23,840 bases of DNA from a virus, in IMG/VR virus record IMGVR_UViG_3300045738_000749, positions 1 to 23,840 of that record; one strand, written 5' to 3'. Made by a program: the position numbers and the translations under genes. Position 1 is the stretch's first letter. Each line of letters opens with the position of its first letter. The notes beneath the pieces are model-generated. The model was not told the DNA's origin. It made no database searches and saw only the letters and a list, made by a program, of their open reading frames with translations. Positions 4,283 through 16,850 of the stretch are shown piece by piece.

Positions 4283-5195
4283 TACCTTGCCTCTCAAACG
4301 CCGCTGCGTTTGGGTTGTAGATGAGATCGATATGCTTGGCATGGTCATTCAGCATTCCGCGTACCTGTGCCCACACTGCTGGCGCCTCGGAGAGTTCTGC
4401 CTTGGATGTGTTGAGCACCTCGGTTAACTCGTCCGGATCGATGCAGCCGTGGATTTTGTCGCGCCATTCGCCAACCTCTCCAGCAACGACAGAACTAGCG
4501 TGGTTGCGCTCGTTGAGTGTGTCTTTCGCGCCTTGAATGATGGTGCCCAGGAAGTCCGGCGCACTGTTCAAGTTCGGAACCTGGATTGGCTCGAGTCCTG
4601 GTGCGTTCTTACCGATCCATCGATCCGTCGGGGAAAAGTCGAGCACGGTATTCGATCCCGCTCTATACAAGATACCCACCATGTCGGCAACCTTGAGCAC
4701 TTCACCATAACTGCCGCCCTGGATGTCGGGTCGCATGATCCGCGTGTCGCCGTTCTTATCCTCTTTACCGTGGGCAATCATCACGATGTCTTTGCCCTGG
4801 GTTTGGAGCTGACGAATCCAGCCGGTGAATATTCCCTTGAGCACGCCCCAACCCTGCATCGACAGCGACCCATTCTTGTTGCCCTTGCGTGGGTCGTCGG
4901 CAATGATGTGCGCTGTAATCATATCGAGGGCACGGCCAACCGTGTCTATAACAATCGTGTCGTAACCCTCCAGGTCTTTGCGCGTGAGTTGTGATACCTC
5001 GCTCCACTCGTCGACCTGGACGCTATCGCCGCGTTGCAAGGCGCGGAATGCTCCGTGGTCAAAATCAAACATCAGGGGGTTAAAGGAACTAAATGATATC
5101 GACGATTTCCACGCACCAGGGTCGCCGTAGATTAAGACCACCGCCCGCTCGAACGCGAGGGGGTCTGTGGATTTAACGATTTTCAATTTGCTCAT
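4269..5195 (-). CDS. Sak4-like RecA-fold ATPase (AAA_24), variant Walker A
   Basis: 308 residues from ATG at 5195 (MSKLKIVKSTDP), with AGAGGA upstream. The P-loop is residues 24-31, GDPGAWKS, where Trp29 takes the place of the usual glycine before Lys. Walker B is TIVIDT (80-85, Asp84). A further segment (DIVMIAHGKE) and a family-like PDIQGGSYGEVLKVADMV stretch match the phage AAA_24/Sak4 proteins that promote single-strand annealing or act as RecA-like recombinases. The C-terminal 80 residues are helical and end in a basic/Ala tail. It sits between small early genes and the exonuclease, forming an end-resection and annealing module. The Trp codon TGG is at 5109-5111. Confidence 0.82.
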   Translation of the reverse strand: MSKLKIVKSTDPLAFERAVVLIYGDPGAWKSSISFSSFNPLMFDFDHGAFRALQRGDSVQVDEWSEVSQLTRKDLEGYDTIVIDTVGRALDMITAHIIADDPRKGNKNGSLSMQGWGVLKGIFTGWIRQLQTQGKDIVMIAHGKEDKNGDTRIMRPDIQGGSYGEVLKVADMVGILYRAGSNTVLDFSPTDRWIGKNAPGLEPIQVPNLNSAPDFLGTIIQGAKDTLNERNHASSVVAGEVGEWRDKIHGCIDPDELTEVLNTSKAELSEAPAVWAQVRGMLNDHAKHIDLIYNPNAAAFERQGNAAA

Positions 5196-5250
5196 GGGGA
5201 GTCCTCTTTACTTGAGTGAATACATGATTGATTTCTCTAGTCATTGCTCG

Positions 5251-5448
5251 TTACTCCTGTTCGCGCGCGAGGTTCTGCATGTTGGGGATGTGCGCCTCGA
5301 GGTCTTCGACCGTCGTTTTGATTTCGTCGAGTCGAGTGGGCATTTCCTCGGGGTCGCCCTTGTAAGCTAATTCAATCTGGTATAAGTGCTCCTCGATCTT
5401 ATTGCGGAGCGATACCCAGGCGTCGTATGTGGTGTTGGGTCTAATCAT
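5251..5448 (-). CDS. Small coiled-coil protein (65 aa)
   Basis: ATG at 5448 with ribosome site GAGGAGA, ending TAA at 5251-5253. The product starts MIRPNTTYDAWVSLRNK and is highly charged and helical (KIEEHLYQIELA, TRLDEIKTTVEDLEAH), which suggests a coiled coil. It overlaps the small membrane peptide upstream by 8 bases. No family recognised; probably a small early accessory protein. Confidence 0.62.
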   Translation of the reverse strand: MIRPNTTYDAWVSLRNKIEEHLYQIELAYKGDPEEMPTRLDEIKTTVEDLEAHIPNMQNLAREQE

Positions 5449-9079: not shown

Positions 9080-9374
9080 CGAAGAACGAAAGCTCTCCTG
9101 GTGGCGGTGGCATCAAGCCAATCCCCACGTCTATGAACTATTTGAGCGATTCTCTCTTGAGGCTGCACGGCATGGACACACGCGTTTCTCACATTGGTTG
9201 GTGATGAACCGAATCAGATGGGAAACCACCATAGATACGACCGGCGTGGACTTCAAAATCAGCAACAACCACATTGCGTACTATGCGCGGCTCTTTATGG
9301 CGCGTCACCCAGAACATGCTGGATTCTTTCACACCAAGAAGATGAAAGACGAAACACCCGATGAGTGTCACTAA
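9066..9374 (+). CDS. Conserved phage protein of unknown function (102 aa)
   Basis: I favour TTG at 9066 because GGAGG (9055-9059) sits six bases upstream; the GTG at 9030 would overlap RusA by 50 bases. The product is helical and rich in aromatic residues: WWRWHQANPHVYELFERFSL, RFSHWLVMNRIRWE, then a NNHIAYYARLFMARHPEHAGFF segment. This pattern, a His/Asn-Pro start followed by an RxRWE and NNH..YARxF block, is one I recognise as a widespread unnamed phage and prophage protein near replication genes. It overlaps the endolysin gene by 14 bases. Confidence 0.68.
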   Translation: MTPSSEERKLSWWRWHQANPHVYELFERFSLEAARHGHTRFSHWLVMNRIRWETTIDTTGVDFKISNNHIAYYARLFMARHPEHAGFFHTKKMKDETPDECH

Positions 9375-9867
9375 CTCTCACGCGTTCTGCCAGGCTTTTG
9401 AGTATGTGCTCGACCACGAAGGTGGTTTCGTCAACGACCCCGCCGACCCTGGTGGTGCCACTGCGTTCGGTATAAGCCAGCGCTCCTACCCGAACCTAAT
9501 CATTAATGAGATCACGGTCGAAGATGCGCGGGAGATTTATTGGCGTGATTGGTGGATGATGTACCATTACGACCGGCTGCCTCCGCGCTTGGCAATCAAG
9601 GTGATGGATACCGCCGTCAATGTTGGCCCGGTGCGTGCTCATTCATGGATGCAAGCGGGACTGAATCAAACGGGTGCCGACCTCGAGGTAGACGGCGTGA
9701 TTGGTCGTATGACGATTACAGCGAGCCACGACTGCACAGATATAATGGAGGTGATGTGTTGGGTGTCCAAGCGCCAGGCATCCCACTATCGTCGCCTGGC
9801 GAAGCGATCACCGAAGCTCGAGCGCTTTCTTGATGGGTGGATGAAACGCGCCAAGCTGTTGCCGTAG
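9361..9867 (+). CDS. Endolysin, GH108 muramidase with PG-binding domain
   Basis: 168 residues from ATG at 9361. The N-terminus carries the family signature HEGGFVNDPADPGGATAFGI (residues 19-38), with Glu20 as the expected catalytic acid of glycoside hydrolase family 108. The body keeps the YWRDWW and MDTAVNVGP elements. The C-terminal third (DGVIGRMTITA ... RRLAKRSPKLERFLDGWMKRA) matches the PG_binding_3 domain that normally follows it. The enzyme cleaves the glycan backbone of peptidoglycan. There is no signal peptide, so it needs a holin; the likely one is at 1089-1493. The following one-TM peptide may also help release. Confidence 0.9.
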   Translation: MSVTNSHAFCQAFEYVLDHEGGFVNDPADPGGATAFGISQRSYPNLIINEITVEDAREIYWRDWWMMYHYDRLPPRLAIKVMDTAVNVGPVRAHSWMQAGLNQTGADLEVDGVIGRMTITASHDCTDIMEVMCWVSKRQASHYRRLAKRSPKLERFLDGWMKRAKLLP

Positions 9868-14309: not shown

Positions 14310-14619
14310 CAAGCTACTCGAGCAGTCCGGTTGGGACGCGCTCGAGATAGATGGATTAGCGCAAACCAGGGGGAGGCACGACCAGGCAAATGAAGCGCGT
14401 GAAATCGCCACACGATTCCATGAGTGTTTTCGCTCTGATTCCGGGCGCTATGTTCTTAATCGATTGATTCAGATTACGGTGCTGCGACCGACCGTTACAC
14501 CGACATCAACACAATTCGAGGCTGGCATTCGAGAAGGGCGCGCCGATTTAGTTCGTCAGATTCTCGCGCAGCTTGATATAGCAGAAAACGACCAACCAGG
14601 AGCACTACTTAATGAGTGA
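14296..14619 (+). CDS. Bbp19-like small structural-region protein, start uncertain
   Basis: The frame to 14619 gives about 107 residues from TTG at 14296 (then AALDKLLEQSGWDALE). The core EIATRFHECFRSDSGRYVLNRL ... STQFEAGIREGRADLVRQIL matches the pattern of Bbp19-family phage proteins (FxxCFxxxxGxxVLxxL ... REGxRxLVxxIL), usually found next to the portal gene. An ATG at 14182 would overlap the portal gene by 128 bases and translate its Gln tract in another frame, so I prefer the TTG. It overlaps the scaffold gene by 8 bases. Confidence 0.62.
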   Translation: MAALDKLLEQSGWDALEIDGLAQTRGRHDQANEAREIATRFHECFRSDSGRYVLNRLIQITVLRPTVTPTSTQFEAGIREGRADLVRQILAQLDIAENDQPGALLNE

Positions 14620-15406
14620 TGAACCCCAGGCAGAAGCAACGGAAGCTACGCCAGAAACCGAAGCAGTAGCAGAACCCACACCAACCGAGGGCAGTTTGCT
14701 CGAGGGTGTATCTGAAACACCAGAACCCAGCGCAGTAACCGGCGATTGGCGTTGGGTTGATGGCATCAACGGCGAAGGTGATAGACCCGAGTGGTTTCGG
14801 GACAAGTACAAGACGGTCGCAGACCAGGCTAAAGCGTATACCGATCTCGAGAAGAAGGTCGGACAAGCTGCGCCGGATGAGTACGAGGTGGTATTACCCG
14901 AAACGGTTAACGCGGCGATGTTGGAAGGCGATCCGATGCTGGACTGGTTTAAGACGGCAGCAAAAGAGGCGAATCTGGGGCAGGAATCATTTAACCACAT
15001 GTTAACGGGGTATATCGAGAACCAGGTGCGTGGGATTAACCACGACCGGTCGGCAGAAATGGACGCCCTGGGCCCGCAAGCGCAGTCACGATTGAAGACG
15101 CTGGCATCCTGGGGGCAGGGCAATCTGTCAGCCCAACAGTGGGAAGTATATAAAGGGGTCGCCTCAAGCGCCGAAGGGGTTGAACTGCTCGAGGCGTTGG
15201 TCGGTAAATCGCGAGAAGCTCCGTTAGCGAAAGCAACACCGGCAGCGAACACCAATACACCCGACGACTTACGCAAGATGCGTTACGCAAAAACAGAAGA
15301 AGGCCAGCTTCGTATGGCAGTCGATGCGCCTTATAAGAAGCGCGTTGAGTCGGCATATAAAGATTATTACGGGGAGCAATCTGTCGAAGCACAGGTTACG
15401 CAGTAA
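14612..15406 (+). CDS. Scaffold / capsid assembly protein, T7 gp9-like
   Basis: 264 residues from ATG at 14612, with AGGAG nine bases upstream. It starts with a very acidic, Thr/Pro/Glu-rich 50 residues, then DRPEWFRDKYKTVADQAKAY, the standard scaffold motif (PEWFxxKYKxxxxQAKAY). LEKKVGQAAPDEYEVVLPE follows, then helical segments, and a basic C-terminus (PYKKRVESAYKDYYG) of the kind that contacts the capsid protein. Scaffolds template the procapsid and leave before DNA filling. The normal neighbour is the capsid gene, but here an unrelated AT-rich gene lies between. Confidence 0.9.
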   Translation: MSDEPQAEATEATPETEAVAEPTPTEGSLLEGVSETPEPSAVTGDWRWVDGINGEGDRPEWFRDKYKTVADQAKAYTDLEKKVGQAAPDEYEVVLPETVNAAMLEGDPMLDWFKTAAKEANLGQESFNHMLTGYIENQVRGINHDRSAEMDALGPQAQSRLKTLASWGQGNLSAQQWEVYKGVASSAEGVELLEALVGKSREAPLAKATPAANTNTPDDLRKMRYAKTEEGQLRMAVDAPYKKRVESAYKDYYGEQSVEAQVTQ

Positions 15407-15408: not shown

Positions 15409-15423
15409 CTATATTGAGCAGCT

Positions 15424-15765
15424 ATGATTCCAATATCTAATCAGATAAGCGAATTGATAACTCCGTTTATTGTAGCGTTAATACTTCTTGTTATATCTTT
15501 GTGGTTCAAAGATTTTGCAACCAAGATTGCGAAAGGGTTATCGTTTTCATTCAACAAGTCTTTTCAAGAGGGCGATAAAGTTATCTTGGATGGCGAAAGG
15601 GCGCTTATTGTCAAAGTTGGGTTAACTCAAACTGTATTTGGCATCACCAAAAGTGACGGCGAGTGGGAGGGTGATTACGTTTGGAGATATGTTCCCAATG
15701 AGAGAATACCGTATCTAAAATTAGAAAAGGTGGTGGAAGAACACATTAAAAATGGTGGTTGTTAG
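15424..15765 (+). CDS. MscS-like small membrane protein, probable moron gene
   Basis: 113 residues from ATG at 15424. One membrane helix (residues 11-28, LITPFIVALILLVISLWF) is followed by an amphipathic segment (KDFATKIAKGLSFSFN) and a beta-domain: SFQEGDKVILDGERALIVKV, LTQTVFGITKSDGE and RYVPNERI. This follows the MscS channel pattern of TM3, then PFxxGDxVxxxGxxGxVxxI...T...(I/V)PN. Full MscS has three TM helices and a C-terminal domain, so this is a minimal form. GC is about 38% by hand count (129 of 342), far below the flanking genes, and it separates scaffold from capsid. This suggests recent acquisition. The call rests on pattern recognition. Confidence 0.66.
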   Translation: MIPISNQISELITPFIVALILLVISLWFKDFATKIAKGLSFSFNKSFQEGDKVILDGERALIVKVGLTQTVFGITKSDGEWEGDYVWRYVPNERIPYLKLEKVVEEHIKNGGC

Positions 15766-15848
15766 GTGTACACCAACCCTTAAATACTATATATTGTGTT
15801 TTGTTGTAGCTCCTGTGAAACGGACACCTCGATAAGCACCTGGGGTTA

Positions 15849-15967
15849 GCCGCTCGAGCCCGCGCAATGCGGACACCTTGAGAGGCCCAAGTTCCCGAGC
15901 CCGCTGAACGGAGCCGGACTAAGCGCCCGCAAAAGCGCTAGAACCGGCCCGCTTTTTGGCGGACACC
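15849..15967 (+). ncRNA. Candidate structured RNA element upstream of the capsid gene
   Basis: Read as RNA, four hairpins follow one another: CCGC/GCGG with loop GCAAT (15860-15872), CCG/CGG with loop CTGAA (15902-15911), a two-step stem GCCGG/CCGGC enclosing AGCGC/GCGCT (15913-15948), and CCGC/GCGG with loop TTTTTG (15949-15962). The first and last are both directly followed by ACACC. The repeated module CCCGC-loop-GCGGACACC with differing loops argues for a conserved structure. It may be a leader controlling or processing the capsid mRNA. No known RNA class is recognised. Confidence 0.42.
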
Positions 15968-15981
15968 CGGATCGCAAAAGG

Positions 15982-16004
15982 ACGCTCGAAAGAGCGTGAT
16001 TTTT
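15982..16004 (+). terminator. Terminator-like hairpin before the capsid gene
   Basis: ACGCTC, a GAAA tetraloop and GAGCGT form a perfect 6-bp stem (15982-15997), followed by GATTTTT. It lies 21 bases upstream of the capsid ATG, so full termination would cut off capsid expression unless a promoter lies within the leader. Partial termination, antitermination or an mRNA 5' stabiliser are alternatives. Confidence 0.5.
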
Positions 16005-16025
16005 ACGACACCGGAGAGACTATAA

Positions 16026-16850
16026 ATGTCTAAAACTCTATCGGCTGCTGCACAACAGCAGTTCGACGATGATGTTAAGCACGCCTTTCAAACGGCGGGG
16101 AGCTTACGCAGCACCGTCACAATCCGAAACGGCGTCGTCGGCGATATCTACAAGTTCCGCAAGATGGGCAAAGGCACGGCAAACCAGAAGGCGAGCCAGG
16201 CTGATGTTACGCCGATGGACGTTACCCACTCACTAATCAACTGCACTTTGGGAAATTGGAACGCACCAGAGTACACCGATATTTTCGACTCAGCCGAAGT
16301 GAATTTCGACGAGCAGCGGGAATTGGCACAAACCATCGCGGGAGCGTTGGGTCGTCGCCTTGACCAGCTAATCATCGATGCACTGGGTGCAGAGGCGAGC
16401 CCAGCGGGAACCATTGCACATGGTTCGGCTGGCATGACGGTGGCGAAAGTGGTTGAAGCATCGAAGCACCTCAACGACAAGGGTGTGCCCGGAGAAGGGC
16501 GGCATTTTGCTATTACTGCTGCCGGGCTCGAAGACCTCCTCAACATCTCAACCGTCACCAGTGCCGATTACAACTCGGTACGTTTGCTGATGTCCGGTGA
16601 GTTTGATTCGTGGATGGGCTTCAAATGGCACATGATTGAGACACGCGGCGAAGGCGGGCTGACCGTTTCTGGTGGTACGACAGAGGGGTTTGCTTGGCAC
16701 GAAAGTGCAATCGGCCTTGCTATCGGTATCGATATCAAATCCGAAGTCAACTATGTACCGCAGAAAACCTCCTGGTTGTGTAATGGAGTGTTGAAAGCGG
16801 GTTCTGTTTCACGCGACGGCGACGGTTCTGTATCCGTTAGCTACCAGTAA
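16026..16850 (+). CDS. Major capsid protein
   Basis: 274 residues from ATG at 16026, with GGAGAG upstream. The protein starts MSKTLSAAAQQQFDDDVKHA and has the usual features of a compact HK97-fold podovirus capsid protein: FQTAGSLRSTVTIRNGVVGD, the E-loop-like NQKASQADVTPMDV, the spine-helix-like FDEQRELAQTIAGALGRRLDQ, and a C-terminal beta-rich part with WLCNGVLKAGSVSRDG. Place after scaffold and before tail genes agrees. It carries its own strong ribosome site and leader, fitting high expression. Confidence 0.88.
   Translation: MSKTLSAAAQQQFDDDVKHAFQTAGSLRSTVTIRNGVVGDIYKFRKMGKGTANQKASQADVTPMDVTHSLINCTLGNWNAPEYTDIFDSAEVNFDEQRELAQTIAGALGRRLDQLIIDALGAEASPAGTIAHGSAGMTVAKVVEASKHLNDKGVPGEGRHFAITAAGLEDLLNISTVTSADYNSVRLLMSGEFDSWMGFKWHMIETRGEGGLTVSGGTTEGFAWHESAIGLAIGIDIKSEVNYVPQKTSWLCNGVLKAGSVSRDGDGSVSVSYQ

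Follow-up and report, generated by a model that had tools for sequence, protein, structure and literature searches.

The window, a stretch of 23,840 nucleotides of DNA from a marine virus of bacteria, encodes on its plus strand, at positions 15424–15765, a small protein of 113 aa which we call mini-MscS. The gene is preceded by a capsid-assembly (scaffold-like) gene (14612–15406, +), assigned by its BLASTP match to gp32 of MEP301, a 'capsid assembly protein' (4e-12), and by its conserved position in relatives. It is followed by a capsid leader with a structured element (15766–16025, +) and by the major capsid gene (Phage_capsid_2; 16026–16850, +; PF19821, 7e-66; phrog_3437, 3e-70). In the isolate MEP301, the capsid-assembly and capsid genes adjoin.

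Hydropathy analysis reveals a single strong transmembrane (TM) helix near the N-terminus of mini-MscS (residues 8–26, mean Kyte-Doolittle value 2.48). A TM3b-like helix follows at residues 29–46, which is amphipathic with a hydrophobic moment of 1.32 vs 0.53 for residues 11–28, and the subsequent beta domain (residues ~47–102) finishes in a VPN motif, as part of VPNERI, in the sequence as well as in the predicted model. An earlier note on this DNA had read the same elements from the letters, and they are seen again by hydropathy and fold model. There is no positive charge before the TM helix, and K29, K34, and K37 lie after it; this fits a predicted N-out, C-in topology like that of MscS TM3.

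When used as a single sequence, the window protein matched no family in a Pfam scan, and profile scans found no specific Pfam or PHROG family for mini-MscS. A phmmer search against the PDB returned MscS channels exclusively (best E 0.0036). The first fold model, based on a 19-sequence alignment, was moderate (pLDDT 64.6) and was superseded by a good second model from 51 sequences (pLDDT 82.6); the leading Foldseek rows for both are MscS-family channels. By VIA-align, model residues 3–113 correspond to residues ~85–189 of E. coli MscS with Z up to 9.1, and hhalign of the mini-MscS profile against three MscS proteins gave E 3e-5, so the MscS beta domain is matched by profile and by structure. 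PF00924 (MS_channel_2nd) was hit weakly by 14 of 51 family members (best E 0.024), the window protein alone being unmatched. Throughout the 51 sequences G38, which aligns with G121 of E. coli MscS, is invariant, as are P91 and N92. The agreement of these methods bears out the kinship with the TM3 and beta domain of MscS that had been proposed before, and mini-MscS is almost certainly an MscS-derived module with putative channel activity.

The likeness to E. coli MscS (PF00924) comprises the amphipathic TM3b with its conserved glycine, the beta domain, and the PN motif, while P129 is not kept and large parts of the channel are missing. With one TM helix in 113 aa, mini-MscS has no tension-sensor helices TM1–TM2. 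The Gly/Ala-rich pore helix (TM3a) is likewise absent, the 20 residues preceding TM3b having a mean of 2.0 G/A vs 9 in E. coli MscS, which speaks against a pore. The C-terminal alpha/beta vestibule is lacking as well, as mini-MscS stops just past the beta domain.

The top PDB sequence match is to the 9sdg chains, which, together with related chains, we take to be microsporidian MscS2. It is also a reduced MscS that keeps the TM3 region and the beta domain, but it is eukaryotic and has 171 aa in the matched chain and more hydrophobic sequence at the N-terminus. Microsporidian MscS2 is a proven heptamer (PMC11262690), whereas the oligomer of mini-MscS is presumed. Text searches of the open-access literature revealed no study of this mini-MscS family. 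One MscS-like phage protein was reported earlier, gp51 of Paraglaciecola phage PANV1, which HHpred matched to MscS 6RLD; a phospholipase, gp36, is predicted in PANV1 as well (PMC9239159). We liken gp51 to mini-MscS by its published description, which in the passages concerned proposes no lysis link (PMC9239159).

A working reduced MscS could act as an osmotic safety valve, venting solutes under tension and preventing the cell from bursting before virion assembly. The MscS fold kept in the predicted model is consistent with such a valve; furthermore, the much-reduced microsporidian MscS2 still assembles into a heptamer with a channel pore (PMC11262690), and viral mechanosensitive-channel (MscL) genes are reported to increase with salinity in estuarine viruses (PMC13288924). 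However, mini-MscS has neither the tension-sensing TM1–TM2 nor the Gly/Ala pore helix. The genes named beside it in other phages (see below) belong to lysis or to late structure or encode lipases, and osmolyte genes were not recognised in these loci. We consider the valve unlikely.

The scaffold and capsid genes have GC contents of 0.548 and 0.540, respectively. At 0.378 (GC3 0.381), the mini-MscS gene is the minimum-GC stretch of the window at 339-bp length; the values stated previously, about 38% against more than 50% in the capsid gene, were accurate. As the earlier note proposed, the same locus was compared in related phages. The gene is missing in two near relatives, L108 and L109, whose capsid is 98 and 97% and whose scaffold 91 and 87% identical to that of the window phage; in both, 268–269 bp of ORF-free DNA lead from scaffold to capsid. 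The outcome that the note had named as refuting, presence in all relatives, is thus not what is seen. Alignment of the filled and the empty sites delimits an inserted stretch of 348 bp at approximately 15415–15762 (+), and the stop codon TAG of mini-MscS (15763–15765) belongs to the flank common with L108. In L107, a near copy of the window phage, the scaffold-capsid gap measures 618 bp and contains the gene. Searches with the capsid or the scaffold protein retrieved 85 loci, which include a few of the same contig and some that end before the scaffold gene; mini-MscS was found in two of them (L107 and L113, both on the contig of L002) and was absent from the 83 others. We therefore regard a recent insertion into the window phage as almost certain, and horizontal acquisition as a single-gene insertion (moron) between the capsid-assembly and capsid genes is supported.

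The gene had been described as splitting the scaffold-capsid pair. It does sit between both genes, but the insertion is intergenic and disrupts neither. Its lack of the word CTCGA, formerly put forward as evidence, carries no weight, since the capsid gene itself has just one CTCGA and its absence from 342 bp has p ~0.08. Across the whole window, CTCGA occurs 175 times on both strands, compared to ~54 expected from dinucleotide shuffles (0/100 shuffles as high), and is sparse at 16–18 kb. Two further relatives have other single ORFs in the same gap (L138, 1176–1481; L182, 2920–3303), one of them, judged by eye, like an IscA/HesB-type Fe-S carrier and one lipoprotein/TM-like. The gap may thus be a hot spot for cargo.

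Single-gene insertions that occur in some strains and are missing in near relatives are typical of genes for superinfection exclusion or membrane counter-defence, and mini-MscS might modify the inner membrane against a second phage or a host defence. The SieB profile was touched by 17 of 51 members (best E 0.015), but these weak matches may stem from nothing more than hydrophobic helices. Moreover, exclusion would leave the linkage to endolysin, spanin, and lipase genes unexplained, and we hold it to be quite unlikely. SieB identity of mini-MscS was rejected, the matches being too weak.

The family extends beyond this phage to hundreds of uncultured marine phages: in IMG/VR, 450 viral stretches encode relatives of mini-MscS. 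In the tree, the window protein groups with those of L002–L005. The closest relatives outside the window phage reside in lower-GC phages, two of which have T4-like genes: a helicase loader in L004, and in L005 a neck gene along with a T4-type terminase. Against the close relatives L002–L005, dN/dS of the gene is ~0.04–0.19. Purifying selection acts on mini-MscS, which is therefore not a chance ORF.

Two matches, L192 and L193, both among phage genes, came from a single scan of 84,980 prokaryote genomes. L192 lies on a 335-kb contig assigned to a Marinimicrobia MAG, with phage genes in the stretch examined, and this contig may be a large phage. In 50,697 GenBank phage records, no mini-MscS relative was found with three queries. 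A match in Klebsiella phage May was dismissed as a chance match, since the ORF encodes a different, signal-peptide-like protein. Full-length MscS queries against phage records mostly hit bacterial-DNA-like or unannotated fecal contigs, plus a Microcystis phage. PF03420 and PF05838 matched none of a set of selected phage records, the control records among them, and are uninformative there.

Both MAGs that contain L192 and L193 encode a full-length MscS. This would suit a dominant-negative or mixing subunit that enters or caps the MscS heptamers of the host and alters its turgor control. Also in favour, mini-MscS retains of the channel just TM3b and the beta domain, two parts that pack in the ring of MscS. 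Nevertheless, the protein is not close to any particular host MscS, and the family spans very different phages, presumably with different hosts, while its own sequence is strongly conserved. Such a subunit is very unlikely in our view.

The gene neighbourhoods were studied in 103 distinct loci, composed of the best 80 of the 450 stretches and 27 from the first scan; they are best matches of two scans and many are closely related, so that the following counts are not independent. In T4-like phages, mini-MscS recurs in lysis cassettes with endolysin, Rz/Rz1 spanins, and small TM proteins. Cluster 2, located within two genes in 47 of the 103 loci, is a protein of ~100 aa with two hydrophobic stretches (phrog_10198, no function label), which we infer to be holin-like. 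A class-3 lipase (PF01764) occurs within two genes in 31 loci, representing at least four different neighbourhoods, and GxSxG is present in all 31 lipases. Spanin-like genes are found within six genes in 25/103 and a GH19-type endolysin in 15/103 loci. The clearest case is L192, with a GH108 endolysin, Rz-like, Rz1-like, cluster 17, mini-MscS, and cluster 2 in this order, the last three abutting or overlapping. In L193, mini-MscS is accompanied by a cell-wall hydrolase and cluster 2. The L031 genes for lipase, mini-MscS, cluster 17, and cluster 2 adjoin or overlap one another.

The linkage to lysis genes is not universal, as a baseplate-hub gene lies within two genes in 39 of the 103 loci, and AmtB-, PiT-, and FTR1-type transporter-like genes were recognised by eye at or near mini-MscS in others (L096/L100, L036/L040/L069, and L006). 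Given these baseplate-hub genes, and the capsid genes that adjoin mini-MscS in the window and in L098/L104, a membrane-anchored beta ring might help to build capsids or baseplates at the inner membrane. Phages closely related to that of the window manage without the gene, though, and the neighbouring lysis genes and lipases would be left without explanation; we regard an assembly helper as most improbable.

Since its relatives are often found beside lysis genes, mini-MscS probably acts on the host inner membrane late in infection, and its gene neighbours in related phages suggest the lysis programme more than osmotic protection. As a serious possibility that falls somewhat short of probable, we tentatively propose that mini-MscS serves the lysis programme in the inner membrane at a late stage, perhaps as an oligomeric pore or as a holin partner. 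Mini-MscS would be made late in infection and enter the inner membrane with its N-terminus outside and the beta domain in the cytoplasm. There it would oligomerise, probably to a heptamer as MscS does, and join lysis as a small pore, holin partner, or lysis timer. The trigger may be membrane tension or, where a phage has both genes, lysolipids from the lipase. Lysophosphatidylcholine activates MscS (PMC9739000), which makes the lipase partner suggestive, its lysolipid output being putative. By analogy only, pinholin S21-68 of phage phi21, also a small phage inner-membrane protein, forms heptameric pinholes of ~2 nm (PMC6139136); it has no MscS beta domain, and no homology to mini-MscS is claimed.

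The window phage has lysis genes of its own, a 3-TM holin (1089–1493, +; PF11351, 6e-11; phrog_3427 holin, 4e-24) and a GH108 endolysin (9361–9867, +; PF05838, 1e-22; phrog_315, 3e-44) of the same family as the L192 endolysin near mini-MscS. Beside mini-MscS in the window there is neither cluster 2 nor cluster 17 nor a lipase, and holin profiles matched neither the window protein nor the L192 member. The description as a small membrane protein in a lysis cassette is true for relatives such as L192, while the window gene lies between structural genes. Having its own holin and no lysis partners beside the gene, the window phage need not use mini-MscS for lysis; where the gene stands alone, the putative role is borrowed from the relatives. 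Synteny speaks for a lysis function of mini-MscS indirectly, and we rate such a function at slightly less than even odds.

A further reading, which we hold to be unlikely, is a new kind of lysis system: many uncultured marine phages would have their holin replaced or timed by a one-TM MscS-derived ring together with a small 2-TM protein, often with a class-3 lipase whose lysolipid products would gate the ring. If the lysis role is true, it ties the well-studied MscS fold, gated by tension and lysolipids, to the timing of lysis in marine phages, and mini-MscS would be a small natural construct for asking what minimum of MscS suffices for a pore.

Phage C48C1 was examined in its cluster-2 neighbourhood. 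The cultured Vibrio phage KVP40 (L106) encodes a cluster-2 homologue at 4980–5279, ~3 kb from annotated Rz-like spanins, and the match runs upstream of the annotated start. In the 10-kb region of KVP40 examined, no mini-MscS match rose above noise, though cluster-2 homologue and spanins are there. The homologue is a holin candidate.

Finally, the capsid leader (15766–16025) occurs with and without the mini-MscS gene and therefore lies outside the insertion. Rfam gave no match near mini-MscS, in the leader, or anywhere else in the window. The structured element at 15821–16018 has a fold z of −3.7 and reveals two-sided changes in 14 of 41 predicted pairs among 14 relatives (0/500 shuffles as high), and CGGACACC is repeated three times in the region of this element.
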